From: a virus
Reading direction: 5' to 3' (one strand)
Length of the DNA stretch: 40,086 bases
Virus record (IMG/VR): IMGVR_UViG_3300050821_002746
Coordinates: 1 to 40,086 of that record
In this document: piece by piece, positions 12,331-40,086 of the stretch
Position numbering within the stretch: position 1 is the stretch's first letter
Layout of the letters: every line of letters begins with the position of its first letter
Translations under genes and position numbers: made by a program
Notes under the pieces: model-generated
What the model saw: only the letters and a program-made list of their open reading frames with translations
Database searches by the model: none
What the model was told of the DNA's origin: nothing

Positions 12331-12331
12331 A

Positions 12332-15808: not shown

Positions 15809-15819
15809 CTTCTGTTCTC

Positions 15820-16047: not shown

Positions 16048-16986
16048 CGCTTGCAGAGCGTTGCCTACTGCTAGGGTTTCGCCATTAATCAGAGGAAATT
16101 TATTCACGCCACAATTTAGCGTGAGTGAACCATACACCGCTCTCGGTGTATAAGCACCACCTGTTTGAAGGTCGGTCAAGACTGTCGGCTTTTCCAAGAA
16201 TGCAACCTTAAGCTTTTCTGGGCGAATGCCCAAGATGCGTCCTGTTGCATCACCGCTCTGCTGAACAAACCTATGTTTGTGGAGCGTGAGCGTTCCGAAT
16301 GCTGTCTCATACGTTGTAACCGTTTTCACGATTCCACGAATGTCAGGAGAGTTCACTACCACGTTGGACTTCGCCACGAATGTGTCGGAGTTACGTTTCA
16401 TGATGCCTCCCATGAATAGGTCAGTTGCAACGTCGCCATTGCTGTTTGACCAGTTCGTCTGCATGAGACCGTCCAAGATTGTTGCGGAGAACGCTGTGCC
16501 AGAAGTTTGAGCCGTAGTATTCGTGCTCTTACTTATCGCAACAATAATCCCCGACATCGTTTGAGCCGTACCGGAAATACCGGATGTCTGCGTACCACGT
16601 ACAAGGTCGAACTCTACCGCGTTGGTGAACTCCATGAGTCCTTTAGCCAACTGTCGGTCAAGTTCGTTCTGTCCATGGTAGTGCTGCACCGCTATTTGCG
16701 GACGAGTCACACGGATTGGAATAGCAATTTCTTCCACGATGTTGGTGAGCAAGGTAGGAGTCGTCCTAGTTGTATAGGTGAAGTCCTGTCCTTGTTCGAC
16801 TGCTTGTGATGCGGGAGTCAAGAGCGTATCCACTGGATACGAGTGAATCATCGCAATCGCATTAGTCTTTCCCAGCATCGCGAAGATTCCATCTTCACGG
16901 GAACTAATAATCTCAACTGAATCGAGAACGATATCAGTCTTGATGGTTAGATCGCCGTAGGTCTGGAGTACTGCTGTCTGTGCCAT
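16042..16986 (-). CDS. major capsid protein, SU10/DUF5309-like
   Basis: A 314-aa protein that forms the icosahedral shell. The N-terminal part (TIKTDIVLDSVEIISSREDGIFAML) is followed by TRTTPTLLTNIVEEIAIPIRVTRPQIAVQHYHGQNELDRQLAKGLMEF. That is the beta-strand and spine-helix region typical of HK97-fold capsid proteins of the SU10 (DUF5309) group. The C-terminal part (LGIRPEKLKVAFLEKPTVLTDLQTGG) matches the same group. It lies ten bases behind the scaffold gene and is followed by a structured RNA and a terminator, as expected for the most abundant late product. Confidence 0.85.
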   Translation of the reverse strand: MAQTAVLQTYGDLTIKTDIVLDSVEIISSREDGIFAMLGKTNAIAMIHSYPVDTLLTPASQAVEQGQDFTYTTRTTPTLLTNIVEEIAIPIRVTRPQIAVQHYHGQNELDRQLAKGLMEFTNAVEFDLVRGTQTSGISGTAQTMSGIIVAISKSTNTTAQTSGTAFSATILDGLMQTNWSNSNGDVATDLFMGGIMKRNSDTFVAKSNVVVNSPDIRGIVKTVTTYETAFGTLTLHKHRFVQQSGDATGRILGIRPEKLKVAFLEKPTVLTDLQTGGAYTPRAVYGSLTLNCGVNKFPLINGETLAVGNALQAV

Positions 16987-18248: not shown

Positions 18249-20174
18249 TTATCTCATTGTGAGGGCCTGAGTTGTTTGTTGTTGTTGCATCGGGCCTTGA
18301 GCCATAGGCTGTTGAGGTTGCTGAGGTTGACCTTGTTGTGGCATTTGCTGTTGAGGCTGCTTGAAGGGAGAAAGGCCCATTAAATCTACTGCTTGCTGCA
18401 CAATTTGGTCTGCATACTGCGGAGCAGCTTGTAAGAGTGTCATAAGATTCTGAATAGTAACTGAAGTATCCATTTCTTCATTAGTCACATACATCTCGGT
18501 TTCTAACTCTTCAACGATAATGTCCTTTAAGAGTTTAATGAACATGTCACCTTTCCGTAATTTCTCGTGGGCATGCTGAACTTCTCTCACTATTTCCTGT
18601 GGTGAGGGTAAATACCCGTTCGCGAATGACTTATCAAGTGCTTCTTGGGCCTTAAACATGACGACTCGTTCGACAATCTGCGAAAACCCGTCCTCATCGC
18701 CTGAGATTCTCACTATTTCACCCGTTGTTAGCTCTTTAGCGATGATCTTAAGCGCATGTCTGTCCATCCAACGCTCCAAAAAGCCTCCAATACCATCTTT
18801 AATGAGCGCGAAGCCTGATTTAACGCTCTGAGACTGCATGGATGCTGCGGTAGCACTCGTATCTGAAGGCAAATCTTCTCCTGTTGCCACTTGAAAGGCA
18901 TTAGTGAGGCGTTCAGACATATCCTTGATAACTTCCTCATCCCTGTATGAACTTTCCCCTACTTCCTGAACGACCATTTGTTCCAGATCTTCGAGGTTAT
19001 TTAAGACAACAACGCCATTGGAAGGCAAACGGGCTAACATCTGAGGCGTCACGCCAGCCCCTTTCTTCATCTTGAATAGGCCTAATTGAGAAACACGAGA
19101 ACGATTGATGCGGACGTTGAAAACTATGTTGGCGTAGATTTGGAGTGTTAAGAGCTTTTCAGCTATCCCACGCCCATACCAACGATTAGGGACTCTCGTG
19201 TACCAACACTCTTCATAGGGTTTAAGAGAATTACCCTCATTATCCTTTCTGTCATTCCTCTCGATGAGGTGAACACGCTCCTTACCTGGTGAGTCAATAC
19301 CTGAAACGACAATATGCCCCTCAACTTCCCTGTTCTCGTCGTTAGGATTCCCTGTAAGCAAAGATTCAGGGATTTTGCCCCATAACTCATAGACATCTAA
19401 CTCCTTAACATTCGAGTTGACCTGCGTTGAACGATTCATCCAATAGGGGTCAGTTCTTGGAAGTCCTTCCGTGACATTTAAATCAACATCCTGAGTATTA
19501 ATCCATCCCGTCATCCCTTTAATGACCTGTGGATCTTGTAGAGAACGCTCAGTAAACCTATACGAGTCTTGAATGCTCGCACTCGTAGGGTCGATATATA
19601 TATTCAAAAGGTCTACAAGGGCGATTCTTAACTTCCCTTCTTCTTCCCATGTCTTCCACACTGCAGTCCCGTCGATAGCGAGAGCACGTTCAAAGTCATC
19701 AAGACGTTGGCCAAAGAACATCCTCGATAGCTTGTTCTTGACCGCAGATCTTGTTATCTCAGTAATTCCGTATCCATCGGGGGTCTTGGAACGAAAGTTG
19801 ATGTCTTTCTGGTCGAGATCGATGTTCTTAACCACTGCTTCCACATTAATCTCAGTGAGTGGATACCACGTCTTTTCAAGGTTTGTGAATTGGTCAATAG
19901 GAACGTCAAATATCCCATAATAGTTCTTCCTGAAGATTCTGATAAGCTGCCGCATCTTGAATGATACACGGTCGGTAACGAACGCGGTAGCCACTTCCCA
20001 TCGTTGTTTCTCCCCTCTCACTATGCCAATTGCCCTAGCATATATCTGGTCGTTACTGGCCATTCCTATAGGATCTGATGAATCTGCGGTCTGTAAGAGA
20101 TGTCCAGTGCGTTCCTCATTGACTGTAGAGCTCGAGGCGAATGTCTTTGCGAATGTTTTGGAGGGGCGAGCCAT
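18249..20174 (-). CDS. portal protein (podovirus-like)
   Basis: A 641-aa protein that forms the ring at the packaging vertex. Features fitting portals include the N-terminal helical region with RWEVATAFVTDRVSFKMRQLIRIF, the central wing (DGTAVWKTWEEEGKLRIALVDLLNIYIDPT), VPNRWYGRGIAEKLLTLQIYANIVFNVRI, and the stem/clip region (SERLTNAFQVATGEDLPSDTSATAASMQSQ). The C-terminal ~50 residues are Gln/Pro/Met-rich. It lies directly behind terminase and has its own late motif at 20198-20211. Confidence 0.85.
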   Translation of the reverse strand: MARPSKTFAKTFASSSTVNEERTGHLLQTADSSDPIGMASNDQIYARAIGIVRGEKQRWEVATAFVTDRVSFKMRQLIRIFRKNYYGIFDVPIDQFTNLEKTWYPLTEINVEAVVKNIDLDQKDINFRSKTPDGYGITEITRSAVKNKLSRMFFGQRLDDFERALAIDGTAVWKTWEEEGKLRIALVDLLNIYIDPTSASIQDSYRFTERSLQDPQVIKGMTGWINTQDVDLNVTEGLPRTDPYWMNRSTQVNSNVKELDVYELWGKIPESLLTGNPNDENREVEGHIVVSGIDSPGKERVHLIERNDRKDNEGNSLKPYEECWYTRVPNRWYGRGIAEKLLTLQIYANIVFNVRINRSRVSQLGLFKMKKGAGVTPQMLARLPSNGVVVLNNLEDLEQMVVQEVGESSYRDEEVIKDMSERLTNAFQVATGEDLPSDTSATAASMQSQSVKSGFALIKDGIGGFLERWMDRHALKIIAKELTTGEIVRISGDEDGFSQIVERVVMFKAQEALDKSFANGYLPSPQEIVREVQHAHEKLRKGDMFIKLLKDIIVEELETEMYVTNEEMDTSVTIQNLMTLLQAAPQYADQIVQQAVDLMGLSPFKQPQQQMPQQGQPQQPQQPMAQGPMQQQQTTQALTMR

Positions 20175-20197
20175 TCTTATAAAGCTACCTCACGGCT

Positions 20198-20211
20198 CTA
20201 TTTCAGTGCAA
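20198..20211 (-). promoter_or_regulatory. late motif copy 4 (upstream of portal gene)
   Basis: TTGCACTGAAATAG on the minus strand lies one base after the TAG of the preceding small gene, 37 nt upstream of the portal ATG. It is the most upstream of the four identical copies. Confidence 0.6.
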
Positions 20212-20212: not shown

Positions 20213-20389
20213 CTATAGGTCTTTACCAATATCACTTAGGATTTCAAGTATTCTGGCTTCTATTGTTCTGAAAGCTTTTGGTCTATGATGTTTCTTCATG
20301 GTTTGTAAGAAAAGATTCATGCGAAAGAAAGCTCCTTTGAGTGAATCGATGGCTTCTAGCCTCAAATCTTCGTCCCAATCATCAGTCAT
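20213..20389 (-). CDS. small helical protein between TerL and portal
   Basis: A 58-aa protein: MTDDWDEDLRLEAIDSLKGA, then FFRMNLFLQTMKKHHRPKAF and ILEILSDIGKDL. ATG 20389 overlaps the TerL stop by eight bases (ATGACTGA), the usual coupling here. It is helical and charged. No family is recognised. Confidence 0.6.
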   Translation of the reverse strand: MTDDWDEDLRLEAIDSLKGAFFRMNLFLQTMKKHHRPKAFRTIEARILEILSDIGKDL

Positions 20390-21671
20390 AGGTTGCCTGA
20401 TATAAGTTTCCTTCCTGTTCCCTATTCGCGAATCTGGGATTGCGTTCATGCCAGTCAATCGGTGTCGGAGTGTCTTTTCCATGTACTGCAAGAGCCAAAG
20501 ACATCACTCGGTCATCATTAGGAGCGGTAGATATCATCGCTATTCTTGTCTTATTCGTTTCCTTATTAACTATAAGCTTATACTGAAATGATTCAAGTTC
20601 GTTTATTAGACCTTCATCGTTAGGAATCTGTATCTTGTCTTGTTCTAAGAGCATTGAGAGATGGTTAAGTAAATTAGCACGAGTGACTTCAGTAAACTTA
20701 ATGGCGTCATCTTCGCCTATATTCAATCCTCTGCTCTTTAAATCATCTACAACGGGATCACCAATACCGGTAGCATCAATCTTCACTCTTGCTTTGTATC
20801 GTAGGGCTGTGGCTTCTATACGCGCTTTCTGTAGATTCCAATCCACCTGATTGAATCTATCCTGTACATAGGCTCTGAAGGTATTGAGGTTAAATGGCGT
20901 AAGTACTGTCCAATCTTGATGCTTGGCTAAGTCCACACCTAACTGGAAGTCTCCGTATTCGGTCTGCTGTTCTTCTTTGTTATAGGTATTCTGGTGGATT
21001 CTCCTAAAGACTTGTGATGCACCTTCAAGGAAGTCGCATTCATATTCCTGATTGTAGAGAGCTTGTGGTGAAGTCTTTTTCGCTTCTTCGAGAGAATCTT
21101 TAGAGATAATGCCGCTTTCCGAAGCTTTTAAGACTGAAGAATACCAATTAGGATTATCTTTAGCATATTGAAGCTTTGTCCATAAGTCATTCTTTCCTTT
21201 TGGGGTGCCCATGAACCATGTCCACGAATGAGGATTTGCAGTCATGATAGGTTGAATAACTGCTGACCATGTATCAGACTTCATTGTTGCGTACTCATCT
21301 AACACAACTCCTTGTGGATTAGGACCACGGAGAGCATCAGGCTTATCAGATCCTTTCACAAATAACATCGAGCCATTAGGGAATGGAATATATAGTTCAC
21401 TGTTATTTCTCTTTTCCCATATTTCAGGTGGACAGTACTTTGGTAACATTTGAGAGTCTTGCCATATGGTTTCTTTCGCTTCTCCATAGAATGGAGCAAC
21501 ATACCAATACGTGCCTTTAACTAAGGCTGCCATCCGTAACAGTTGGTTAATAGCTAAGGTCGTCTTATGTGCTTTTCTATGCCACACAATTACCTTGAAC
21601 CGTGCCTTACTCTGCAAGATAGGTAATTGGTGCTTCTCTGGCATCCAGTTGTGTGGGAATAATATCTCCAT
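20382..21671 (-). CDS. terL: terminase large subunit
   Basis: A 429-aa packaging motor ATPase and nuclease. The Walker A position is HRKAHKTT (31-38), where His35 replaces the usual Gly before the catalytic Lys36. Walker B is VVLDE (122-126) and the coupling motif GTP is at 155-157. The RNase H-type nuclease has D247 (LGVDLAKHQDW), D299 (VKIDATGIGDP) and D386/D387 (NDDRVMSLALA). Length is normal. It overlaps the small-subunit candidate. The altered Walker A is the only odd feature and does not argue against function, since all other motifs are intact. Confidence 0.92.
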   Translation of the reverse strand: MEILFPHNWMPEKHQLPILQSKARFKVIVWHRKAHKTTLAINQLLRMAALVKGTYWYVAPFYGEAKETIWQDSQMLPKYCPPEIWEKRNNSELYIPFPNGSMLFVKGSDKPDALRGPNPQGVVLDEYATMKSDTWSAVIQPIMTANPHSWTWFMGTPKGKNDLWTKLQYAKDNPNWYSSVLKASESGIISKDSLEEAKKTSPQALYNQEYECDFLEGASQVFRRIHQNTYNKEEQQTEYGDFQLGVDLAKHQDWTVLTPFNLNTFRAYVQDRFNQVDWNLQKARIEATALRYKARVKIDATGIGDPVVDDLKSRGLNIGEDDAIKFTEVTRANLLNHLSMLLEQDKIQIPNDEGLINELESFQYKLIVNKETNKTRIAMISTAPNDDRVMSLALAVHGKDTPTPIDWHERNPRFANREQEGNLYQATYD

Positions 21672-27690: not shown

Positions 27691-28051
27691 AGATTTTGGA
27701 GACAAAGCAAAGAGCGATAAATGGGAACCTTCGACACGAGAGATTGAGGACTTAAGAACTGAATTAAAGGAATTTCCGCAAAAATTAATCGGAAGTAAGT
27801 TAGTTTGTCCATTCGACCAATATCTGATTTCGCTGGGGACGATAAAGCTAGAAGATGGCCAAATAGTCGTGCGTGACCCCGAAGGCCATCAAAGGCTTGC
27901 GGCGATAAATGCGAAGTTGGAATGGAAAGAATGGTTTGAGCACGAACGAACGATGAAACAATTTCCAGAAGAAAAACAAATATTCTTGGAAAAGGTTTTC
28001 AAATTAAAAGAAAAGCTGTCAGTGCCTAAAGGTCTAATAAAAGCTGTATGA
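27683..28051 (+). CDS. unknown replication-operon protein, 122 aa
   Basis: A charged helical protein (SKDFGDKAKSDKWEPSTREI, LRTELKEFPQKLIGSKLVCP, GTIKLEDGQIVVRDPEGHQR). It overlaps the gene before it by eight bases and the one after by four, so it is part of the operon. I recognise no family. Confidence 0.6.
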   Translation: MSKDFGDKAKSDKWEPSTREIEDLRTELKEFPQKLIGSKLVCPFDQYLISLGTIKLEDGQIVVRDPEGHQRLAAINAKLEWKEWFEHERTMKQFPEEKQIFLEKVFKLKEKLSVPKGLIKAV

Positions 28052-28428
28052 ACTACGAACACAAATACGATGCGGCACACAAATGGCTCCGATACCATAT
28101 TGGCCCAGCGAAGATATGTACGAGCGTCAAATGCACTGGCAGAAGCAAGAAATATCAGTGGGCTTTACGACATGGTATGGAGCACGCAAAAGACCCGCGA
28201 CACTACCGACAGCTATGCGTCTCCTGTCATGCCATCTACGACGGAAAAATGCTCGTACTAGCAGAGAAGAAACAAAAGCGCGTTATCGGCGTGAAGTCTG
28301 GTATCACTATTGACGTTCTTTCGATAAAAGAAGCGGCACGAATAGCACATACGTCGAAGACAGCTATTAGCAATAATTTACATGGCCGCTCTAAATCAGC
28401 GGCTGGATTTATATGGAGTATAGCTTAG
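28048..28428 (+). CDS. HNH-like nuclease with NUMOD1-like C-terminus
   Basis: A 126-aa protein. The core has HKWLRYHIGPAKICTSVKC, SKKYQWALRHG, and LCVSCHAIYD, the same pattern as genes at 6997, 29264, 29629 and 31258. The C-terminal segment SIKEAARIAHTSKTAISNNL followed by GRSKSAAGFIWSIA matches the NUMOD1 DNA-binding motif of homing endonucleases. It overlaps both neighbours. Confidence 0.78.
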   Translation: MNYEHKYDAAHKWLRYHIGPAKICTSVKCTGRSKKYQWALRHGMEHAKDPRHYRQLCVSCHAIYDGKMLVLAEKKQKRVIGVKSGITIDVLSIKEAARIAHTSKTAISNNLHGRSKSAAGFIWSIA

Positions 28429-28889
28429 CAAAACAATTGAAGGAGTGCAGAGATTGCGGCGTTGAATTTATAGGTGGCTTCAAGGCGTTTCGTTGCAAGC
28501 CATGCCAAAAGAAAGCTCGTAATGAAATGCGAAAGGAATGGAATAGACGATATTCGCTGAAAAACCGAACTAAAATCACTGCAATAAATGTCGCTTACCA
28601 GAAGCTCATGCGCTCAACGAATCCTGAATGGCGAGAATGGGAAAAGACTAAATATCATAAACGTCGTGCTCGAATTGAAGGAAACGGTGGAACTCATACG
28701 ACACCCGAATGGATGGCTTTGTGTAGTGAATATAATCATCAATGCGCTAACTGCCACGAAGAAAAATCTTTGACACGCGACCACAAAATCCCTCTTAGCC
28801 GAGGTGGGACGAACGATATTAGTAATCTTCAACCCCTTTGTGGTTCTTGCAATTCAAGCAAGGGCGCAAAACTCACCTATGGACTATAA
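28413..28889 (+). CDS. HNH endonuclease
   Basis: A 158-aa protein. The N-terminal zinc knuckle (CRDCGVEF...CKPCQ) is followed by a basic helical linker. A classical HNH domain follows: CANCHEEKSLTRDHKIPLSR, GGTNDISNLQPLCGSCNSSK. The D-H and N residues of the active site are present. A mobile nuclease in the replication operon, overlapping the preceding nuclease by 16 bases. Confidence 0.85.
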   Translation: MEYSLAKQLKECRDCGVEFIGGFKAFRCKPCQKKARNEMRKEWNRRYSLKNRTKITAINVAYQKLMRSTNPEWREWEKTKYHKRRARIEGNGGTHTTPEWMALCSEYNHQCANCHEEKSLTRDHKIPLSRGGTNDISNLQPLCGSCNSSKGAKLTYGL

Positions 28890-29263: not shown

Positions 29264-29632
29264 TCAGTCAGAGTTTGTAATAACAGGAAATTCGACACAT
29301 TTCCTGACATATTCGGCCTCACTAATCTTAAACTTCTTACTCATCTTCCTAATAATTGCTCGCTGCTTTCCAGTGAATAATATTACGAGTTTTAGAGGTT
29401 TCATGTATTTACCAAGAAGTCCATGTTTCCTATCGTAATGATAGTGACATTTCGTGCACAGTTGAATGAAGTTTGCTCTCTTAAATTCGTACTCTTTACC
29501 TGCTTTCAAGCACCAGTGGATACTACCTGATTCATGATTCGTTAGACATTTTTCACTTTCACATCTCTTAGCTTTCCCGTATTCATCTTTCAGCCATTTG
29601 TGCATCTTTGCATGCTCGGATTGAGTAATCAT
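29264..29632 (-). CDS. HNH-like zinc-finger nuclease
   Basis: A 122-aa protein. MHKWLKDEYGKAKRCESEKC, IHWCLKAGKEYEFKRANFIQ and LCTKCHYHYD form the family core. The C-terminal half (AIIRKMSKKFKISEAEYVRK) is helical and may bind DNA. The start overlaps the preceding nuclease as ATGA, so two nucleases of the same family lie in tandem. Confidence 0.7.
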   Translation of the reverse strand: MITQSEHAKMHKWLKDEYGKAKRCESEKCLTNHESGSIHWCLKAGKEYEFKRANFIQLCTKCHYHYDRKHGLLGKYMKPLKLVILFTGKQRAIIRKMSKKFKISEAEYVRKCVEFPVITNSD

Positions 29633-29937
29633 ATCTTTTTTTCTAATTGTTTCTTTCGACCTCTCTTACCTATCTTGCGCATATAATCACTCCCGTACTT
29701 CTCTGAGGTAGTTTTTCCTCCCAAATGTGCGTACCTCTTTACCATATGACCGTCATAAGCAACATGACACATTTGGCATAGTTGGATAAAGTTTTCGCGT
29801 CTCTTTGCGTACCTTGAACCAGTCTTCTTAGCCCATTGATAATTTTTTGATCTTCCTTCACATTGTGGATTCTCACATTTACTAGCGGGACCAAAATGCG
29901 AACGAAGCCATCTGTGAATTTGCCATCTTTTAATCAT
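29629..29937 (-). CDS. HNH-like zinc-finger nuclease
   Basis: A 102-aa protein. MIKRWQIHRWLRSHFGPASK, CENPQCEGRSKNYQWAKKTG and RENFIQLCQMCHVAYD are the core, ending in a basic tail (GKRGRKKQLEKKI). The start at 29937 was chosen over upstream alternatives. A TATACT (29949-29954, minus strand) ends 11 bases before the ATG. Confidence 0.72.
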   Translation of the reverse strand: MIKRWQIHRWLRSHFGPASKCENPQCEGRSKNYQWAKKTGSRYAKRRENFIQLCQMCHVAYDGHMVKRYAHLGGKTTSEKYGSDYMRKIGKRGRKKQLEKKI

Positions 29938-29948
29938 GTACTCGAAAT

Positions 29949-29954
29949 AGTATA
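29949..29954 (-). promoter_or_regulatory. -10 (TATACT) of the leftward HNH operon
   Basis: TATACT on the minus strand with the ATG 11 bases after it. A TTGC-type -35 is not at the standard distance, so the promoter may be weak or activated. Confidence 0.4.
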
Positions 29955-29975
29955 CTTTTAATGGCAAAAAGCAAG

Positions 29976-30607: not shown

Positions 30608-30779
30608 CACTACCACACCAGAAGGCCTCAGGAAGCGTCTGTACGAGTTAGTTGATGAATATACCCACAATCACAACTTTCGTGCGCTGGCGAGACTAAT
30701 AGGGGGCAATCCTAAGGGGGATTTAGGGGATTACCGAGAAGAAGATGCCGGAGAAGAGCCAAAACAATCATTACTATGA
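30597..30779 (+). CDS. small polar protein, 60 aa
   Basis: MTIDTTTPEGLRKRLYELVD, then EYTHNHNFRALARLIGGNPK. An ATG six bases upstream (30591) is an equal candidate. Helical, ending acidic. Overlaps the preceding gene and is joined by ATGA to the lysozyme-like gene. Confidence 0.5.
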   Translation: MTIDTTTPEGLRKRLYELVDEYTHNHNFRALARLIGGNPKGDLGDYREEDAGEEPKQSLL

Positions 30780-31261
30780 AAATCACGTACCTCGGAAGGA
30801 CGCTTCACGATTCAAAAGGTCGCTTCACCTCGCTCAAAGTACTCATGCGTAAGGTATGGTTCTGGACCAAGATTAGTGTAGTAGCAGGACTCTTCGGAGT
30901 CATTGCGTATAGTCTTGGGGTAGCAGACCGTGGGAATACGGTTTACGCGCAGAATGTGATTGTAACGCCGCAGATAGACCAGGAAGCGCCGATACTTCAG
31001 CGCATTAGTGACTGCGAGTCAGGAAATGGAACAAAGGGAAGTGGTAAGCACTTCAAGAATGGACAAGTTATTCTACATGTAAATTCTAATGGAACTATCG
31101 ACATTGGGAAGTTTCAGATAAATTCTACATGGGGCAAGCAAGCTACTAAATTAGGATTTGATCTCACAAAAGAAAAAGACAACTATGCTATGGCTAAGTG
31201 GATATATGAAAATAGGGGAACTTCAGATTGGCTTAGCAGTGCTACCTGTTGGATGCTATGA
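30776..31261 (+). CDS. membrane-anchored lysozyme/transglycosylase-like protein
   Basis: A 161-aa protein. The N-terminus is basic, then a membrane helix (~29-50, WTKISVVAGLFGVIAYSLGV). A lysozyme-like domain follows with ISDCESGNGTKGSGKHFKNG (putative catalytic E81), TIDIGKFQINSTWGKQATKLG, and ending SSATCWML. The C80/C158 pair could form a disulphide outside the cell. The domain style matches small transglycosylases seen in Patescibacteria. It lies in an early-type operon, not beside the holin-like genes, so its role could be cell-wall remodelling or superinfection control. Confidence 0.7.
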   Translation: MKITYLGRTLHDSKGRFTSLKVLMRKVWFWTKISVVAGLFGVIAYSLGVADRGNTVYAQNVIVTPQIDQEAPILQRISDCESGNGTKGSGKHFKNGQVILHVNSNGTIDIGKFQINSTWGKQATKLGFDLTKEKDNYAMAKWIYENRGTSDWLSSATCWML

Positions 31262-31680
31262 GCGAAGAAAAGAGAGACTCACATGGTAGGTTCATCAAGG
31301 GCTCAAAAAAGGGTATGGCCTGGGGACAAGGTCTTATCTCTGGATGGAAGCAGACAAAAGAGGCAAAGATTAAAATCGGTTTAGCTAGTAAGGGAAATAA
31401 CTACGCTTGGGTTGGAGATAAAGCCGCCTACTCTTCAAAGCATGATTATCAGATAAATAAATGGGGTAAAGCAACCAAATGTGAGAACGAAAATTGCACA
31501 TATAAGTCTCCAAGGCGATACGAGTGGGCGAATATTAGTGGCAAATATCTTCGCCAGAGGGATGACTATATACAGTTATGCCCCTCATGTCATAGACGTT
31601 GGGATCGTGGATTCATAACGATTAATGGTATGAAAGGTGTTCCTAAGTTACTAAAATGCGCAAATGGATGGGGAAACTAA
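31258..31680 (+). CDS. HNH-like nuclease with NUMOD3-like N-terminus
   Basis: A 140-aa protein. The N-terminus (GRFIKGSKKGMAWGQGLISG, KQTKEAKIKIGLASKG) resembles NUMOD3 elements. The core is NKWGKATKCENENCTYKSPR, RYEWANISGKYLRQRDDYIQ, LCPSCHRRWD. Start overlaps the lysozyme-like stop as ATGA, and the next gene follows as TAA-T-ATG, so the element is seamlessly set into the operon. Confidence 0.75.
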   Translation: MSEEKRDSHGRFIKGSKKGMAWGQGLISGWKQTKEAKIKIGLASKGNNYAWVGDKAAYSSKHDYQINKWGKATKCENENCTYKSPRRYEWANISGKYLRQRDDYIQLCPSCHRRWDRGFITINGMKGVPKLLKCANGWGN

Positions 31681-32123: not shown

Positions 32124-32306
32124 TTACAGAGTCAGACCAGGTATATTGCCATACTTGAAAAGCAATAGAAGTCCAACTAATAGAATGATAGCTTTTATTA
32201 ACCAATTCACTGGCGATGGAATTCCTGATGCGTCAACCATCCAGAACCCAAAGTATACTACGATTCCTATGACGATAAGAGCAATTAACAGCGTTAGAAG
32301 TGTCAT
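32124..32306 (-). CDS. two-helix membrane protein (holin-like)
   Basis: A 60-aa protein: MTLLTLLIALIVIGIVVYFG, then a loop with VDASGIPSPVNWLIKAIILL and VGLLLLFKYGNIP. Two transmembrane passes with a short loop. Size fits a small holin, but the family cannot be fixed. Last gene of the leftward module, 66 bp before the bidirectional terminator. Confidence 0.6.
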   Translation of the reverse strand: MTLLTLLIALIVIGIVVYFGFWMVDASGIPSPVNWLIKAIILLVGLLLLFKYGNIPGLTL

Positions 32307-32320: not shown

Positions 32321-32566
32321 CTAATAGGTGGTTGTTGATGTTGTGGCTTTCTTCGGATTCACTATCGTCGTATTCGTTGTTGTTGAGTTGTAGTTCTCCA
32401 CATTCGTGGTATTGCCGACAGTGCTCTCAGGCGGCGGAGTAGTGACGTTCACATTCGAGGTAGTGGGCGGCGTGGAAGTCGATGCTAACCACCACCATCC
32501 TAAGGCGATAATGAGAATGACTATAACTCCTACTACCCAAGGCCAGACTTTCGGTGTGTTGTTCAT
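32321..32566 (-). CDS. membrane-anchored Thr/Pro-rich surface protein
   Basis: An 81-aa protein. N-terminal membrane helix (VWPWVVGVIVILIIALGWWW) followed by a Thr/Asn/Pro-rich tail (TSTPPTTSNVNVTTPPPEST). Such short anchored stalks are frequent in Patescibacteria. It follows a terminator, so it likely depends on readthrough or an unseen promoter. Function is unknown. Confidence 0.6.
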   Translation of the reverse strand: MNNTPKVWPWVVGVIVILIIALGWWWLASTSTPPTTSNVNVTTPPPESTVGNTTNVENYNSTTTNTTIVNPKKATTSTTTY

Positions 32567-32637: not shown

Positions 32638-33432
32638 CTAGTTGCAGTGATTGGCTGCATTGAATGCGGCGACCGCTGCACTTGTCTGGACTCCGTAGAA
32701 TCCGAATGAAGCACCCGCAGCGAGAGCTGGGATAGACTCGCCCTGAGAGAGCAAGAATCCTTGCAAACGTACATTAGCATCATTGCGAGAACCTTGGACA
32801 GTACCAGACATAGCTTGTGCGAAAGCCGTACAAGATGCTGAGACTGTCGGAGCTGGAGGCGTTGTTGGCGTTAGCTTAGCGATAAGAATCGAAAGCAACT
32901 GCTCAAGAGTGTTACCTGAAGTACCCGTACCTCCTGTTCCTGTACCTCCTGAATTGGTGGTAAGAGTGCCACTAGAGAGTCCACCGCTTACGATAATACG
33001 ATTATCGAATTGCGGAGACGTAGTTACTGCCGCTTCGGTGCACTGACTATCCGTTGCATCACCGTTACCGTTGATGCCGTGGATTGCTACGACTACCGGC
33101 CACGAACCCTCGTAAAGAGGAGCCGTTACTGGGACAGATACATCCCATCCGTTTACTGGACTTTCACCGAGCTTAGGAGGGTTAACGGTGTAGCACTGGC
33201 CTTGCTGAGCAAGGCCGCCTGCACCTGGAAACTTCACGAATACTGCCTGAACATTCTCATTTACTCCAGAAGTGACGAAAGCGTGCATTTCTACCTGCCC
33301 ACCTCCACTCACACCTACATTACCAGCACCATTGTCGAAAAGGACATTGGTGACGGTCATTGCGGAAGCCATACCAGCACCTACTATGAGGGTAGCGAGA
33401 CCTGAGACCGCAAAAGTTAAGATTTTTTTCAT
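32638..33432 (-). CDS. secreted protein with beta domain and short C-terminal peptidoglycan-binding-like region
   Basis: A 264-aa protein from ATG 33432. Signal peptide MKKILTFAVSGLATLIVGAG with cleavage after MASA (~24). An extracellular beta domain follows (NVLFDNGAGNVGVSGGGQVEMHAFV), then a Gly/Thr linker (GGTGTGGTGTSGN). A helical segment LEQLLSILIAKLTPTTPPAP and a C-terminal region LQGFLLSQGESIPALAAGAS, FGFYGVQTSAAVAAFNAANH complete it; the last resembles a peptidoglycan-binding repeat. The architecture is like secreted proteins of Parcubacteria. Its place in a phage lysis module is unusual. Confidence 0.7.
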   Translation of the reverse strand: MKKILTFAVSGLATLIVGAGMASAMTVTNVLFDNGAGNVGVSGGGQVEMHAFVTSGVNENVQAVFVKFPGAGGLAQQGQCYTVNPPKLGESPVNGWDVSVPVTAPLYEGSWPVVVAIHGINGNGDATDSQCTEAAVTTSPQFDNRIIVSGGLSSGTLTTNSGGTGTGGTGTSGNTLEQLLSILIAKLTPTTPPAPTVSASCTAFAQAMSGTVQGSRNDANVRLQGFLLSQGESIPALAAGASFGFYGVQTSAAVAAFNAANHCN

Positions 33433-33620
33433 GTTTAATTTTAAGGTTAAGTAATTTATGTAACTACAGCTACCGTAGGTTCGACCCACCTGCTGCAACT
33501 ATAGCCTGTGCCTAAGCGCAGGGATGGGCTCATGTGTCCTTCCGGCAAGTAAAGGGGTCGCCTTACAAGCTTGTACACACGAACCCGTCTCTGCACTTAG
33601 ACGTTACACGTGAAAGCTTA

Positions 33621-33776
33621 TTACGGAGTAACTGCTGCGCGAAGACCTGCACCTACTGCTGCAACCTCAATCAACTGCACTGCGCCATTTGCGTCAATAT
33701 GGCCTGTAAGAAACGCAAAGATAGCATAGAGCGCACCGATAGCGGCCGCTATATACGTTTTCATTCCTGGTAACAT
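33621..33776 (-). CDS. small membrane protein, holin-like
   Basis: A 51-aa protein: MLPGMKTYIAAAIGALYAIF, then AFLTGHIDANGAVQLIEVAA and VGAGLRAAVTP. One clear membrane helix and a second amphipathic one. A start at MKTYI (33764) is equally possible. It follows the endolysin candidate by 75 bp. The 188 bp after it (33433-33620) contains only weak inverted repeats and probably the next gene's promoter. Confidence 0.55.
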   Translation of the reverse strand: MLPGMKTYIAAAIGALYAIFAFLTGHIDANGAVQLIEVAAVGAGLRAAVTP

Positions 33777-33851
33777 ATTAAGTTGTTAGCTCGTCTATTA
33801 ATGCCTAGAGTATTTCACTTTTTAGGCAAACTGCAATAAGAATATCCACAG

Positions 33852-34841
33852 TTAGAATGTGTTCAAAACAGTACGAGTTTTTACGCCGACATAGCCACTT
33901 ACAGGGGTTATGTTATGAGCTATTTGGAATGCTTTGACAGCAGCTAAGGTAATTGGCCCAAAAAATCCACTATCAGGTGCTACACCGAGTCTTCGTTGAA
34001 GTTCAAGAATATCGTTATTCGCGTCTCCTCGTTGCATATCCTTGGTAAAGATAAATTGGTTAGGAAGGGCTATTGCTGTTCCTATCTCTAAGACATGGGG
34101 AACGTACGTGCTGTCAAAATAGCCATCTCCTTTAATACCCCAAGAAGTACTCCATGAATTGCGGAACCATATCCTAGTCTCATCATACCCCCATAGGGTA
34201 ATGAAGTGGTGTCCTACAGGATTACCGAGTTTAATAGGAAGAACGTGCGCCCAGTCAGGTAGCCAGAATCCATCACCGATATCTATAAGTGCTAGGACTG
34301 CTTTATTTAAGTAGATAGCCTCCTTTATCTGTGCCATCGTTGGCGTATTCGTGAAGGCATAGTTTTTTATAAGATTCTGTTGTCCGTTATTTTGCATTGC
34401 GAGTGTCACATTTGAGATATCTGAGTACGTCTGCAATGATGCTCCTAAATCATTAGGGAGTAGTTCTGAAAGGCAGTCTCCTGTCTTAGTCAATGACTTT
34501 AAGATTGAAGTCATATCCGTTCCATCATTGAGGGGAAAGCCGTCTATCTGTTTAATCTCATCCCAAAGATATTTAGGTGAGAATGATGTAATATTTCCAC
34601 TTTTATGTGTCTGGAGTAATGATGCAAAGAATGCTCCTGCATGTCCCCCACATGTCGGATATGTCCCTTGCATGTATACAGGAATGGTAGAAACATCTGG
34701 CATAAACACAGGAGGAATGACTGCAGGAATTTGATATGAGCCTAGCTCAAAATCTCTAGGATCAACACGACGGGGTACGCCACCAAAGCCCATAGGTATT
34801 ATTGTTTGGCCATTATTAATTCCGAGAGGAGTATCGGTCAT
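33852..34841 (-). CDS. papain-like cysteine protease fused to a peptidoglycan-binding domain (candidate endolysin)
   Basis: A 329-aa protein. Residues ~25-260 are a C1A-like fold: YMQGTYPTCGGHAGAFFASL places the nucleophile at C64. HHFITLWGYD gives H212 and WFRNSWSTSWGIKGDGYF gives N228, the papain Cys-His-Asn order. Residues ~267-329 form a PG_binding_1-type domain (LQRRLGVAPDSGFFGPITLA, AVKAFQIAHNITPVSGYVGV). Two holin-like genes precede it with ATGA overlaps, which places it as lysis enzyme. No signal peptide, as expected for a holin-released endolysin. A papain-fold protease as endolysin would be unusual and suggests peptide cross-bridge or surface-layer cleavage. Confidence 0.75.
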   Translation of the reverse strand: MTDTPLGINNGQTIIPMGFGGVPRRVDPRDFELGSYQIPAVIPPVFMPDVSTIPVYMQGTYPTCGGHAGAFFASLLQTHKSGNITSFSPKYLWDEIKQIDGFPLNDGTDMTSILKSLTKTGDCLSELLPNDLGASLQTYSDISNVTLAMQNNGQQNLIKNYAFTNTPTMAQIKEAIYLNKAVLALIDIGDGFWLPDWAHVLPIKLGNPVGHHFITLWGYDETRIWFRNSWSTSWGIKGDGYFDSTYVPHVLEIGTAIALPNQFIFTKDMQRGDANNDILELQRRLGVAPDSGFFGPITLAAVKAFQIAHNITPVSGYVGVKTRTVLNTF

Positions 34842-35032
34842 ATTCTTGGTTCGTTACGTCCTTCTTCCTTTGAAATAGCCTTTTCAGACTTCAAAAGGGC
34901 ATCAAGCCTACTATTAAGTGATAAATGAATCTCTTGTATCGCCTTACGGGTACGATACGTCATAATTGCCACTACTAAGGTTATAATAGCAAGGAATGCC
35001 TGAATTGCGAGGATTATGTTATTGAAAGTCAT
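34838..35032 (-). CDS. holin-like / spanin-like membrane protein
   Basis: A 64-aa protein: MTFNNIILAIQAFLAIITLV followed by VAIMTYRTRKAIQEIHLSLN and a charged tail. N-terminal membrane helix and cytoplasmic or periplasmic coiled region. ATGA-coupled to the endolysin candidate, the usual neighbour of a holin. Confidence 0.6.
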   Translation of the reverse strand: MTFNNIILAIQAFLAIITLVVAIMTYRTRKAIQEIHLSLNSRLDALLKSEKAISKEEGRNEPRI

Positions 35033-35367
35033 GATTTTCGTATTTTTACGCCATATTTATCAACTTCCTCGTTTCGGTAGATTATCTTTTCGATATTCTG
35101 CCCTTGTTTGTTCATATATTCAATAAGTCGCCGCATTCCGTCTCGAATCTCAGTAAGAAGTTGAGTCGTTTCATCATTATAATGTGCTTGTAATTGTCTG
35201 GCCCACTCTGGAGTAGTGTCACTCTTTGGTGTGTTACTGAAAGAAATTAGACCTTGTTTCCAAGCAAAGAATCCTAGAGCCAGAACCCCAAACCCCGAGA
35301 ATGTCGAAGATGCCATCCTAATATAGTTTAGAATATTTATAAGGTCTGCGATAGATGGGTCGTTCAT
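35029..35367 (-). CDS. membrane protein of the lysis cassette
   Basis: A 112-aa protein. One membrane helix near the N-terminus (FSGFGVLALGFFAWKQGLIS) is followed by a helical charged region (LLTEIRDGMRRLIEYMNKQG). It is ATGA-coupled to the next small membrane gene. Could be a holin, antiholin or spanin component. Confidence 0.55.
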   Translation of the reverse strand: MNDPSIADLINILNYIRMASSTFSGFGVLALGFFAWKQGLISFSNTPKSDTTPEWARQLQAHYNDETTQLLTEIRDGMRRLIEYMNKQGQNIEKIIYRNEEVDKYGVKIRKS

Positions 35368-35375
35368 ATCATTGA

Positions 35376-35618
35376 ATGGGCATAGTAATTTTGCTTACCT
35401 TCGTAGTAGCTTTATTGAGGATGACTGTGGCATGGTATGATTATACGATGTGGAATAAGTTTAAACGATGGCTTCTAGACCCAAAAGTGTATCCTCCTGA
35501 AGCTATTGTGCAGATTGATGGAATGTGTAAACCCCATTGGTACGGAACATTCTTATTTGGCAATCCTTGCAGAGTTTGTGGCATATTTAAAGGAACTTTG
35601 AAACCTCTGAAAGAATAA
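35376..35618 (+). CDS. small membrane/zinc protein on the opposite strand
   Basis: An 80-aa protein. N-terminal hydrophobic helix (MGIVILLTFVVALLRMTVAW), then a basic segment and MCKPHWYGTFLFGNPCRVCG with three Cys and a His suited to bind one metal. It is the only plus-strand gene in this module, divergent from the 35029 gene by eight bases and overlapping the next minus gene by 32. The composition argues it is real. Function is unknown. Confidence 0.55.
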   Translation: MGIVILLTFVVALLRMTVAWYDYTMWNKFKRWLLDPKVYPPEAIVQIDGMCKPHWYGTFLFGNPCRVCGIFKGTLKPLKE

Positions 35619-35682
35619 AAATAGCAGACCATCCAATGATTGTCATGAGAAATATAACTATGTACATTTCAGACGTTTTCAT
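35587..35682 (-). CDS. membrane micropeptide, 31 aa
   Basis: MKTSEMYIVIFLMTIIGWSA followed by IFILSEVSKFL. A single membrane helix starting one base after the stop of the Gly-rich secreted protein (TGA-C-ATG). Its 3' end is antisense to the plus-strand gene. Confidence 0.42.
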   Translation of the reverse strand: MKTSEMYIVIFLMTIIGWSAIFILSEVSKFL

Positions 35683-35683
35683 G

Positions 35684-36676
35684 TCATTTAATATATACAG
35701 AAGTCTTGCCGTTTATGTATCCTGTTGCTTTATTAATGATGATTTGCGTATGGTTTAAGGGAAGAGGGGGAGTAGCAGTATAGATAAGAACGAGTTTTCC
35801 ATCGCCGCCATTTCCCCCAGGTAGACTTGCTGAGATTGCTCCACCACCTCCTGCACCAGGCTGGCCTCCCGCACCACCACCACCAGCGGCATTTCCCGCA
35901 CCACCACCACCCGAGTCAGTTCCGGAACCTACTGTGCCCGCATTAGCGCCACCCCCTACACCACCAGCCGCACCACCAGAACCTGCTCCCCCTGTACCAG
36001 CACCACTGCCACCATTAACACCATTGCCTGAAGTGCCGCCAGAAGAACCGCCACCGACATTTCCCCCGCCATTGGTTTTTGCGGAAGCAGTTCCACCTGT
36101 TCCAGATGCGCCCTGTCCTCCCCCAGAAAGGCCATTACCACCCGCCGTATTAGCACCTCCTCCTCCTCCTGCACCACCACTCGCGTTACCGGCATCACCA
36201 GTCCCGCCGAAAGTGGTAGATGCCATGTTGAGTACGGCACCCGCATCACCTCCACCTCCACCGCCTGCGGCGATGACGTTCGCGCCATCATTTTGAAATC
36301 GAGAAGAACCACCGCCGCCGCCGCCTCCATTGGAACTAACGAAGAAACCATTACCACCGGAAGCAAATCCAACGCCTCCCAAGCCGCCAGCTGCTTCAGT
36401 GCCTCCTTTGCCGCCTTGTCCAAGGGTTATTGTGTAGGTGTTGCCGGGTGTGACATTTACTGTAGTTGAGGCAAATGCGCCTGCGCCGCCTCCGACTTCA
36501 GAGGCACTACCGTTTGAGCCACCACCACCTGCGCCCCAGAGATAAACCTGAACGGAAGTGACGCCAGCTGGAGCTTGCCATGTAGTTGATGCGGTGAATG
36601 TTTGTGTAGTTGCGGAAGCCGAAAAAGGCAGGAATGTTAGGAGTGTAAATGCTAGAGAAAGAAGTAGTTTTTTCAT
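35684..36676 (-). CDS. secreted glycine-rich surface protein
   Basis: A 330-aa protein. Signal peptide MKKLLLSLAFTLLTFLPFSA with cleavage after SASA (~22). A beta start TASTTWQAPAGVTSVQVYLW leads into a Gly-rich domain (~55-295, GGGGSNGSASEVGGGAGAFA, GGGGGAGNAAGG). A tail follows (KLVLIYTATPPLPLNHTQII). Related in style to the tail-tip Gly-rich protein at 7541 but exported. Possibly displayed on the infected cell, or assembled outside. TGA-TT-ATG junction to the giant gene. Confidence 0.7.
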   Translation of the reverse strand: MKKLLLSLAFTLLTFLPFSASATTQTFTASTTWQAPAGVTSVQVYLWGAGGGGSNGSASEVGGGAGAFASTTVNVTPGNTYTITLGQGGKGGTEAAGGLGGVGFASGGNGFFVSSNGGGGGGGSSRFQNDGANVIAAGGGGGGDAGAVLNMASTTFGGTGDAGNASGGAGGGGGANTAGGNGLSGGGQGASGTGGTASAKTNGGGNVGGGSSGGTSGNGVNGGSGAGTGGAGSGGAAGGVGGGANAGTVGSGTDSGGGGAGNAAGGGGAGGQPGAGGGGAISASLPGGNGGDGKLVLIYTATPPLPLNHTQIIINKATGYINGKTSVYIK

Positions 36677-36678
36677 AA

Positions 36679-39645
36679 TCATTGGAGACATATGTAGCTT
36701 ATCGTAAGAGTCGAAAGTCCTGCGGATAGTCCGAACTCAACACCTGTCGTGGAAGCTGCGATTATATCCGCTGTCGCTGCTGTGCTGTTATCACTCTCTA
36801 CACAAGTAGGCGTATCTGAATAGGCTCGTGCAAACTGCATAAAACACGTTGTCGGGGAGCCTGTTCCTGTAGTGACCGCTCCACGAGCATCGGTTGAAGT
36901 CGCAGATATTGAAGGACTTGTACCACAGGCATTCACAACAGGCTTTATCGTCGTATCGCCAGTTGTAGGAGTATTCATAAGTATGTGACCTGTATTCGTG
37001 ATACCGAAGAGTGTGCTTGTTGCAGATTGCGTTGAAGAGGCGATCATGAATAACATGGGCAAAGAATCTCCATTATTCGCATGGATACTTAATTTCGCCC
37101 ATGGCGTGGTACTACCAACACTAAATATCGCGCCTGTACTATTGCCTAATATTTGAAAAACGGTTGTCGTTGCAGTAGGAGTAGAGGAGGCGATGGTGAA
37201 GAATGGCGCTGAATTGCCGGGAGTATTAACATTCATCGATAGGAGTCCCCATGGCGTCGTGGTGCCTATTCCTACTTGTTGTTGGCTATTTATGGTCACA
37301 GCAGGTATATCACTGGTCCCATTAGAAGTAAGGAAATTCCATAATCCTGTTGAGCCGGAAGTATCAGTCTTTGCATTTATCTGTCCCAAGACCGAATTTG
37401 AGGTATCCCCAAATGTTAAAGTAAATATTCCGCTTGCACCACTTGTAATGGGACGGATGTATTCTTGCACGGCAGAGTTACTACCATCTCCGCATACAGT
37501 CATAATTCCTGAACCACCGAATCCACCTTGATTTGGAGTACAATTTATTCCTACTGGAGAGCCAAAGAAACTTTTACCAGCGACAGAGAAGGCGAGTGTA
37601 GGGGAAGTAGTGCCAACACCGAAGATACCATTTACCGCATTTACAACTACACCACCGTCAAAGGTTGAAGTAGCTGCGGTGGACGACGAGAAGAAGACTC
37701 CCTGTGTCCAGATTGACGTAGAAGTGGACATCGTTGTGGTGCTATAGGTCTTTGCTGTTGTAAAAGGGTAAGTGCCTCCCACACACACACCTCCAATTGC
37801 GAAACATCCAGTGGCGATGTTTATACCGGAACCAAACGAGGATGTAGCAGCATCATCAATATTTACCGTATTTGCCCCGGTGTTACCGATGGATAGGTCA
37901 GTGCCCGGAGCAGAAGTCGCGATACCGATGTCGCCGTTCCACGCAACAATAAATTCTGGTGCGGCAGTAGTACTAGCGACGAGGAATGCAGGGCTAGTGG
38001 ATGAAACAATATTCAAAATAGTTGACGTAGCTTGTACGGAAAGAGTCGCCCAGGGGGTAGATGAACCTATGCTTACTTGAGCGCCATTACGAGCTGGGGT
38101 AATAAAGAAATCTGCAAGATTCGAATATGTGCTGTTTGCAGCATCACGTCCGGTAATAAAGAACTTGTCAGATGGGTCAACTCCTGTCTCCCACCGTCCT
38201 ACTGGGGCAGTATTATTAGTCTGTCCCCATTGGATGTTAGGAGCCGTCGGTGCGAGCATTTGCGCGTTATATGTCGAGCCTGTGGTACCGGATGTTTGAA
38301 GATTAAGGTCAGGACACGTTCCGCTATTTGAGCAGTTTATGAGCATCCCTAACCCAGCTCCATTCTTAGAAACATCTATAGCATCATTGCCATTGCTGGA
38401 ATTCGCATCGTTAACATTAATGAGCACTGCACTTCCTGCAGGAGCACTTTGATTAGAATAAATATTTACTCCTGTTCCGGTATTACTAGTGTTGTCAAAA
38501 CGAAATGCACCACCCGTAGAGAAAGAAGTACCATAATTCCTACTCGGAGTTATAGTAATTTGGTGATCACCATTCGTAGCACCGAAGTTCACCGCCTCAT
38601 TGAATGTTGAGGTTGCTGTAGTAGACGAGACATTTATCGCATCAAAATACGACGTTGACGAAGCTGCTAAAGAGACTGGAGAACCTGTAAGAGCCAGAAG
38701 AGTCGTAGTCGCGCTTGTGGTCTGATTGAACACGGATGTATGAGTAAAAGGATCTTGTATTCCTGTTCCACCTCCCGCTCCACAGGCGCTACCTGTGGTA
38801 GTGAGAAGTCCACCAGTGGATGCCTGAACACAATTACCGCTCACGAGATTGGATGAAGATAGTGCAGTTGTAGAGGCGTATGGAAACTGTGAAGCAGCTA
38901 CTGTTGAAGATGAAAAGAAGACTCCTTGCGTCCAGAAAGAAGTACTAGTGGAGAAGGTGGTGGTTGAAAAGGTATTAAGTGAATTAAATTTGAATGGGGC
39001 AGCTTGACCTCCAGTACCACCATTCGCTAATTGAAGAATACCTGTAATAGCGCCAGCACTGGCAAAATTGACCGGCCCACTAGACCAGGTAGATCCATCG
39101 GAAGAAGTGATGACTGCACCTGTTGCTCCAGGACTTATTGCAGAAGCGCCACCAGAACCATTAAAGCGCAGAATCGCATCAACACTAAGAGAACCAGGAT
39201 TTGATAGTCCTGTGCCACCGTATTGTGTGCTTATAAGAGAACCATTCCAAGTGCCACTTGTGACTGTACCAAGTTGCGAATTAGAAGAAACTGAGATATC
39301 AGTCGTCGAAGAGAAAGTAAAGAATGTAGATGAAGCTATGAATCCATACGCTGGCAATGCAACATTTGCGAAGATTCCTGTAGTAGTCGCGCTTACTTGA
39401 TTGCCATTATAGGTGGTTGGGGTGAAGGGGTATGCTGCGCCAGCACTACCACCTGTAGCAGAAAGTATTCCACTTAAAAAAGTTAGATTGGAACCGATTG
39501 CGACTGTCTGTAAATGAAGTGTTCCATTTCCAAAAAGAATCCCTGAAGGACTGGTAGTTCCTGTGCCTCCTTGGGTTGTGTTGAGTTGCGCAAAAGCTAT
39601 TCCAGGAAGGAGAAAGATAAGCAATGATATTAAAAGCTTTCTCAT
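36679..39645 (-). CDS. giant secreted repeat protein of Patescibacteria style
   Basis: A 988-aa protein. Signal peptide MRKLLISLLIFLLPGIAFAQ (cleavage after AFA, 19). The chain is Ser/Thr/Gly/Asn-rich with repeats: TTFSTSTSFWTQGVFFSSST and a second TTMSTSTSIWTQGVFFSSST; IGSSTPWATLSV, GIGTTTPWGLLSM and VGSTTPWAKLSI; plus FTIASSTPTATTTVFQI and FMIASSTQSATSTLFGI. The C-terminal 80 residues form a beta domain with three Cys (ACGTSPS, TTCFMQF, PTCVESD). Such repeat proteins are typical of Parcubacteria-like surfaces. Start overlaps the fibre stop (ATGA). It may be surface-displayed or a virion protein assembled after export. Confidence 0.75.
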   Translation of the reverse strand: MRKLLISLLIFLLPGIAFAQLNTTQGGTGTTSPSGILFGNGTLHLQTVAIGSNLTFLSGILSATGGSAGAAYPFTPTTYNGNQVSATTTGIFANVALPAYGFIASSTFFTFSSTTDISVSSNSQLGTVTSGTWNGSLISTQYGGTGLSNPGSLSVDAILRFNGSGGASAISPGATGAVITSSDGSTWSSGPVNFASAGAITGILQLANGGTGGQAAPFKFNSLNTFSTTTFSTSTSFWTQGVFFSSSTVAASQFPYASTTALSSSNLVSGNCVQASTGGLLTTTGSACGAGGGTGIQDPFTHTSVFNQTTSATTTLLALTGSPVSLAASSTSYFDAINVSSTTATSTFNEAVNFGATNGDHQITITPSRNYGTSFSTGGAFRFDNTSNTGTGVNIYSNQSAPAGSAVLINVNDANSSNGNDAIDVSKNGAGLGMLINCSNSGTCPDLNLQTSGTTGSTYNAQMLAPTAPNIQWGQTNNTAPVGRWETGVDPSDKFFITGRDAANSTYSNLADFFITPARNGAQVSIGSSTPWATLSVQATSTILNIVSSTSPAFLVASTTAAPEFIVAWNGDIGIATSAPGTDLSIGNTGANTVNIDDAATSSFGSGINIATGCFAIGGVCVGGTYPFTTAKTYSTTTMSTSTSIWTQGVFFSSSTAATSTFDGGVVVNAVNGIFGVGTTSPTLAFSVAGKSFFGSPVGINCTPNQGGFGGSGIMTVCGDGSNSAVQEYIRPITSGASGIFTLTFGDTSNSVLGQINAKTDTSGSTGLWNFLTSNGTSDIPAVTINSQQQVGIGTTTPWGLLSMNVNTPGNSAPFFTIASSTPTATTTVFQILGNSTGAIFSVGSTTPWAKLSIHANNGDSLPMLFMIASSTQSATSTLFGITNTGHILMNTPTTGDTTIKPVVNACGTSPSISATSTDARGAVTTGTGSPTTCFMQFARAYSDTPTCVESDNSTAATADIIAASTTGVEFGLSAGLSTLTISYICLQ

Positions 39646-40086
39646 ATGCCAAATATTGATCCACCCGTACCTACTGCCGAAGAAAGAGTTATTGTCGTTC
39701 CTGTACGCGACCAAGTGATAGATCCTCCTGTTTGCTGGTAAAAGGCACCGTTTATGTTCAAAAGCGTCGGAAGCGTTGCTGATGTAAAAGTAACGTTCGA
39801 ATCATTAATAGTTCCTGTGACGGCAATAATTGAAAGTCCTCCGCCTGAAGGAGCAGTAAAGTTCACAGTACTTCCATCATTTCCAGCAGGAACTGCTAGA
39901 GTTCCGTTCGTGAAGTTAATTGTTGTAGCTCCTGTTGAAACTGTTGTCCCATTACTTTGAATGATTGTCTGACGATTACCCCCCAAGGATATCCAATTTT
40001 GTAACCGTGCTCCGGTGCTTCGAGCATAGTTATCAATATCGTCAATGCCTTCTACTTTAGAACGCTTGATTTTCTCAGGAGTACGA
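39642..40086 (-). CDS. collagen-like fibre protein, C-terminal part (same gene as 1-465)
   Basis: After QNWISLGGNRQTIIQSNGTT the chain is beta-rich (TTINFTNGTLAVPAGNDGST, GLSIIAVTGTINDSNVTFTS), ending in SITWSRTGTTITLSSAVGTG and GSIFGI. This is the C-terminal globular tip, which typically trimerises and binds. Bases 39990-40086 repeat the left end and encode residues already counted there. Stop TGA overlaps the next ATG. Confidence 0.85.
   Translation of the reverse strand, partial: RTPEKIKRSKVEGIDDIDNYARSTGARLQNWISLGGNRQTIIQSNGTTVSTGATTINFTNGTLAVPAGNDGSTVNFTAPSGGGLSIIAVTGTINDSNVTFTSATLPTLLNINGAFYQQTGGSITWSRTGTTITLSSAVGTGGSIFGI
39990..40086. repeat. terminal direct repeat, right copy
   Basis: This copy is identical to bases 1-97. 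It lies inside the collagen-like fibre gene and duplicates part of its coding sequence, so it should be counted once. Confidence 0.93.

Follow-up and report, generated by a model that had tools for sequence, protein, structure and literature searches.

Three predicted signal-peptide genes in a tailed-phage genome

The IMG/VR virus record IMGVR_UViG_3300050821_002746, analysed here over its full stretch of 40,086 bases (the window), carries on its minus strand three genes, which we named P1, P2 and P3 (Table 1), whose products start with a predicted Sec signal peptide (SP). Because a perfect 97-nt direct repeat stands at both ends, the window represents a complete tailed-phage genome, and the terminal redundancy together with genes for the terminase large subunit (TerL), the portal and an HK97-type major capsid protein places it within the Caudoviricetes. 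TerL, portal and the capsid protein, which is of the SU10 type, are all encoded on the minus strand. A collagen-like fibre gene is divided between the contig ends, and joining positions 1-465 with 39989-39642 yields a single protein of 270 aa; its stop codon overlaps the start codon of P1, which is therefore the next gene after the fibre on the structural strand. P2 follows directly after P1, then come two small membrane-type open reading frames (ORFs) and a gene for a papain-type peptidase, and after these P3 and two further membrane-type ORFs. Host contamination was considered as the origin of the SP genes and was ruled out by the terminal repeat and the full structural gene set.

An original prediction, made from the sequence of the window alone, had described three leftward genes with clear SPs, and we confirmed all three reading frames, each with a basic n-region, a hydrophobic h-region and an AxA motif, that is, of the canonical Sec and signal peptidase I type. 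SPs were called with a home-made scan for n, h and c regions plus the AxA cleavage motif and not with SignalP; the predicted cleavage falls between MRKLLISLLIFLLPGIAFA and QLNTT in P1 (score 45.6), between MKKLLLSLAFTLLTFLPFSASA and TTQTF in P2 (41.5) and between MKKILTFAVSGLATLIVGAGMASA and MTVTN in P3 (40.7). No transmembrane (TM) segments were found in the mature proteins. When 34 genes of the window were scanned, only one of the 31 besides P1-P3 scored, the ORF at 32321-32566, which looks like an uncleaved membrane anchor. As a control, 54 genes were taken from the structural regions of six isolate phages; among them were homologous fibres lacking an SP, which had been identified by their resemblance to an SP-bearing fibre. 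One of the 54 gave a weak score (18.8) and none reached 30. This specificity, in the window and in the control, puts the SPs of P1-P3 beyond chance, and the earlier view that SPs are anomalous for virion-type proteins was borne out. Two trivial explanations were discarded: chance SPs, by the isolate-phage control and the cysteine parity described below, and translation from a start codon beyond the SP, as internal starts are not conserved in P1 and its relatives.

P1 has the layout of a fibre. In its mature form a GGTG fibre motif stands at +7, and the protein also has TPWG-type repeats, a total of 12 cysteines and a lectin- or tip-like beta domain at the C-terminus; in tips of this kind (type A) four cysteines are conserved in the alignment. 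The full protein matches no Pfam or PHROG family, and Pfam and solved-structure searches assigned the tip domain to no family. Relatives of P1, though not P1 itself, match PHROG tail-fibre and minor-tail families, and SP-less members with the same tip domain are located in phage structural regions. Family homology via relatives and the position in the tail operon thus support P1 as a tail-fibre-type shaft. An AlphaFold2 (AF2) model of the last 116 residues (core pLDDT about 90) predicts for this domain a fold similar to those of phage fibre tips and H-type lectins, the VIA Z values being 7.9 for the receptor-binding domain (RBD) of the Pam1 tailspike, 7.1 for the R1 pyocin fibre, 6.9 for AP22 gp53 and 6.7 for Helix agglutinin. 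Foldseek gave probabilities of 0.98-1.0 with E-values of only 0.04-0.12, and as the VIA Z values (6.6-7.9) stay below 8, the likeness is fold-level support and not proof.

Sequence similarity likewise supports P2 as a glycine-rich tail-type protein. In P3, the last 66 residues are 39% identical (E=2e-5) to a segment of a protein secreted by Paceibacteria (L066), and this segment overlaps a PF01471 match, while P3 itself has no direct Pfam match to this PG_binding_1 family; its structure, predicted from the single sequence, gave an unusable model (pLDDT 41.5). Single-protein scans of IMG/VR confirmed no close relatives of P1, P3 or the papain-type protein, and INPHARED contained no match to P1 or to the papain-type protein.

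Evidence for export and relatives in phages and hosts

Searching IMG/VR with the P1 repeat and the two C-terminal domain types (A and B), we found nine further phages in which an SP-bearing P1-like gene is followed by a second SP gene within the structural gene order (L024/L034, L025, L026, L028, L029, L030, L032, L033 and L038). Two calls are softer: the P1-like N-terminus of L030, MPQLAAFIAFFALAAVAHS followed by A, has no basic residue and fails the scan, and in L026 the second SP gene was recognised by eye in the nucleotide sequence. The proposed check, whether related phages keep the module, had a positive outcome for the P1-P2-type pair, whereas the three-gene module originally proposed did not stand as such, P3 being separate from the conserved unit. 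L061, a phage contig binned with Paceibacteria, carries at its end the fibre gene and the first part of an SP-fibre gene, and a second SP gene lies near the head genes. The gene upstream of the SP-fibre encodes one shared terminal domain in eight phages (jackknife hidden Markov model E-values of 9e-13 to 2e-4, one of 0.07), and to judge from synteny this domain could be a dock for the SP-fibre. A further small SP gene was noted after the head genes in L034 (4317-4847), L038 (5444-6022), L025 (8930-9478) and L061 (8713-9237), with two cysteines in three of the four cases; its product may be exported to act together with a protein of the capsid or tail.

The mature SP proteins of ten loci from phages of Patescibacteria (patesciphages) carry a disulfide signature, as 18 have an even number of cysteines, none an odd number and four have none, compared with 29 even, 47 odd and 52 zero among the other same-strand ORFs of these loci (Fisher p=5e-7, which is somewhat optimistic because the counts include homologous proteins). 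Among 42 proteins of a broader set, 32 had an even number, four an odd number (three of them in L035) and six none. Most tail proteins of the window have no cysteine at all, P1 and P3 having 12 and four, respectively. The type-B tip domain possesses a cysteine pair in nine of ten SP-bearing homologs and in none of the five SP-less ones; its homologs in the T4-like contigs L036 and L037 have no SP, and INPHARED contained no type-B domain. VKOR, a disulfide-forming enzyme family, scored over the cut-off in 55 of 142 Paceibacteria genomes.

Gain or loss of the SP could be read directly between homologs. The window itself encodes an SP-less glycine-rich protein (7541-8593) that is 53.6% identical over 267 aa to an SP protein of L033, the alignment starting at residue 2 of the former and at residue 32 of the latter, the first after its predicted cleavage site. 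An SP-less protein of L062 and an SP protein of L034 are 41% identical, and in six phages the mature protein has the GGTG fibre motif starting at +7 to +9. Cysteine parity, the type-B cysteine pair and SP gain or loss at the cleavage site are independent of the SP call and argue that export is real; this evidence from sequence supports export of P1-P3 via Sec and suggests that tail-fibre proteins of some phages may be sent outside the cell and not built only inside it. It also bears on the idea that the hydrophobic N-terminus stays uncleaved and belongs to the virion, either fixing the fibre to the tail or inserting into the host membrane at entry. The genes do occupy the fibre slot of the structural operon, and virion proteins with hydrophobic peptides are known in other systems, but n, h and c regions with AxA, even cysteine numbers and homolog boundaries at the cleavage site fit export better and segment-less homologs exist in similar phages, so that we consider this idea improbable.

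The window phage very likely infects ultra-small Patescibacteria (Paceibacteria), judging from sequence matches. The P1 repeat matches 22 genome loci, every named one belonging to Patescibacteria, and many of the 15 that we read contain giant surface-type ORFs adjoining housekeeping genes. TerL relatives occur in six of 384 Paceibacteria genomes, one of them integrated next to murC (G311, L057/L058) and one being the SP-fibre contig L061. In genome G102, a chromosomal SP protein with the tip domain of P1 (E=3e-8) lies beside an SP protein with a PG-binding domain, the pair being flanked by polyribonucleotide-nucleotidyltransferase-like and comM-like genes (names from sequence reading). The description of the proteins as host-style was hence apt, as the P1 repeats and the P3 wall domain have cellular relatives among Paceibacteria surface proteins. 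These TPWG-repeat and PG_binding_1 surface proteins share the repeats, in one case a P1-like tip, a P3-like wall domain and an SP or TM anchor, but are chromosomal, often 1000-4000 aa long and adjoin housekeeping genes. The epibiont setting that had been envisaged held only in part, since SP-bearing fibres are also present in phages of apparently other hosts (L035, L074-L079), some of which have at least four SP genes that are consecutive or close together. In such apparently non-Patescibacteria phages, runs of SP genes were seen in the structural region of L035 (5101-18250, with a papain-type protein nearby too), L077 (4817-12188) and L078 (8569-12811). A GroEL-like gene was noted at 204-1781 of L062, a phage contig of Paceibacteria genome G299.

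Possible completion of the fibre outside the cell

We consider it an even chance that P1 and P2 are tail-type proteins with an added cleavable Sec SP, which are exported so that the fibre is finished outside the cell. P1 and P2 would be made from the minus strand shared with the virion genes, exported by the host Sec system and cut by signal peptidase I, after which P1 would be oxidised to disulfides and both would fold in the envelope space to form a receptor-binding fibre whose tip is lectin-like. Virions freed by the neighbouring holin and endolysin genes would then pick up the exported fibre, perhaps via the docking-type domain at the end of the fibre protein encoded upstream, and P3, exported separately, would attach to the cell wall by its C-terminal domain. 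The data show the SPs, the synteny, the homology to fibre and tail proteins, the disulfide signature and the gain or loss of the SP between homologs; export itself, trimerisation, binding to a receptor and the joining to virions are steps that we infer. That fibres may assemble outside the cell had been one of the original suggestions, and we favour it because cleavage leaves P1 and P2 without a membrane anchor, homologs of theirs that lack the SP are tail proteins, a possible dock is shared upstream, and relatives and gene position mark them as tail-fibre and tail proteins.

Several points weigh against this interpretation. Known tailed phages assemble in the cytoplasm, which makes the later addition of a secreted fibre unusual, and the virion may not need P1, as the window contains SP-less fibre candidates (the collagen-like fibre and 5019-5558). 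P2 has no cysteines, the SP calls are based on a simple scan plus cysteine and homology evidence, only synteny points to a docking role for the upstream domain, the Z values of the P1 tip lie in a range where chance arrangements occur, and the parity test is optimistic as stated above.

The host-style relatives and P3 make a coating of the infected cell a serious rival, although we regard it as rather unlikely. P3 would be wall-bound and P1 and P2 would be lectin fibres held nearby or shed, possibly to mask receptors, to exclude superinfecting phages or to change epibiont-host attachment. The P1 repeats in giant Patescibacteria surface proteins, the chromosomal pair in G102 and the wall-binding-type domain that ends P3 all agree with such a role. 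However, P1 and P2 are left without an anchor after cleavage, the conserved unit is a fibre plus a tail-type protein in the structural operon with tail proteins as SP-less relatives, and a shed receptor-binding protein would hinder the adsorption of progeny too. The host homologs of the P1 tip, the P1 repeats and the P3 domain would also suit adhesins of recent host origin, acquired as morons or for lysogenic conversion and unrelated to the virion. This we judge very improbable, because the P1 gene overlaps the fibre gene, about ten divergent phages retain the pair and no integrase or repressor was seen in the window (the search was not exhaustive).

Compared with tailed-phage fibres and tailspikes (Pam1 RBD, R-type pyocin, AP22 gp53, PHROG families), the proteins studied here share the GGTG repeat shaft, a C-terminal tip predicted to be a beta-sandwich, the place in the structural operon and, in relatives, weak PHROG tail hits; those proteins are produced and assembled in the cytoplasm without SPs, whereas the P1/P2 type carries Sec SPs and paired cysteines. 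Phage surface proteins for superinfection exclusion or conversion, lipoproteins such as T5 Llp, are small and anchored; they are likewise phage-encoded, exported and surface-acting, but P1 is an unanchored 969-residue fibre in a tail-gene slot. The nearest known exported late phage proteins are the secreted endolysins. SP-bearing and signal-anchor-release (SAR) endolysins, such as Lys44 of Oenococcus phage fOg44, are exported by Sec before lysis (PMC6116005). This is the likeness to P1 and P2, which differ in being of fibre and tail type and not lytic enzymes; neither kind of gene here is itself a secreted or SAR endolysin, as P1-P3 have no lytic domain and the papain-type endolysin candidate has no SP. 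Among the open-licence literature we found reports on patesciphages and on secreted endolysins but none on SP-bearing tail fibres.

Tail fibres of tailed phages are regarded as cytoplasmic products that are built onto virions before lysis. Conserved SP-fibres with paired cysteines would either break this rule or represent a common phage means of re-coating infected cells. If the former is true, virion assembly includes an extracytoplasmic step, and the finding would be categorically new only if such assembly were shown. We tentatively, and with some doubt, propose a widespread class of uncultivated tailed phages whose receptor-binding fibres are Sec-exported, form disulfides outside the cytoplasm and complete the virions after lysis. 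For phages of Patescibacteria, about whose infection biology almost nothing is known, the genes provide a concrete, testable module, and they warn that SP-bearing phage proteins need not be host contamination or morons.

Neighbouring genes and other features of the window

The original description of the SP genes as interleaved with holin-like genes and an endolysin candidate was fair, given the domain content of the papain-type protein and the small membrane-type ORFs around it; none of the ORFs at 34838-35032, 35029-35367 and 32124-32306 matched a holin family. On the plus strand, away from the papain-type candidate, an ORF at 30776-31261 has a membrane segment at its N-terminus, weakly matches a lysozyme-like family (SLT_3) and is a possible second lytic enzyme.

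Table 1 Positions of the features discussed, in window coordinates.
Feature	Position	Strand	Remark
Direct terminal repeat	1-97	.	Identical to 39990-40086
Collagen-like (GXX) fibre gene, 5' part, no SP	1-465	-	Continues across terminal repeat
Fibre candidate, no SP	5019-5558		
SP-less glycine-rich tail-operon protein (phrog_2295)	7541-8593	-	Internal control; homolog of SP-bearing P2-type proteins
Major capsid protein (SU10_MCP)	16042-16986	-	Marks operon as structural
Portal / head-tail adaptor	18249-20174	-	
Terminase large subunit	20382-21671	-	
60-aa membrane-type ORF, possible holin	32124-32306	-	
Membrane-anchor ORF, Ser/Thr-rich tail	32321-32566	-	Scores as SP/TM
P3, 264 aa, Sec SP, 4 Cys	32638-33432	-	C-terminal PG_binding_1-like domain
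Endolysin candidate, papain-type Peptidase_C1 + PG_binding_1, no SP	33852-34841	-	Domain matches
Small single-TM protein	34838-35032	-	Holin-like by size and place only
Small protein with hydrophobic segment	35029-35367	-	Holin-like by place only
P2, 330-aa glycine-rich protein, Sec SP	35684-36676	-	Gly_rich_2 just under cut-off; weak PHROG tail hits
P1, 988 aa, Sec SP	36679-39645	-	Cleavage after residue 19; scan, sequence analysis
P1 C-terminal domain, 116 aa, four conserved Cys	36682-37029	-	Alignment, AF2, Foldseek/VIA
Collagen-like fibre gene, 3' part	39642-39989	-	Ends in VTGTVDDSN...NG-type domain; stop overlaps P1 start (ATGA)

A repeated motif, TTGCACTGAAATAG, occurs on the minus strand at 481-501, 4998-5018, 9809-9829 and 20191-20211, each time shortly before the start of a gene, namely the fibre gene, those at 3173-4978 and 9023-9790 and the portal gene; it is a candidate late promoter or regulatory element. 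Between tail-adaptor-type and capsid genes, the region 9821-14710 is a block of genes that resemble those of glycosyltransferases, methyltransferases and nucleotidyltransferases and may serve to modify glycans or the surface. ORFs resembling HNH endonucleases number six or seven (6997-7701, 15199-15828, 28048-28889, 29264-29967 and 31249-31680), one of which overlaps the end of the glycine-rich gene at 7541-8593.

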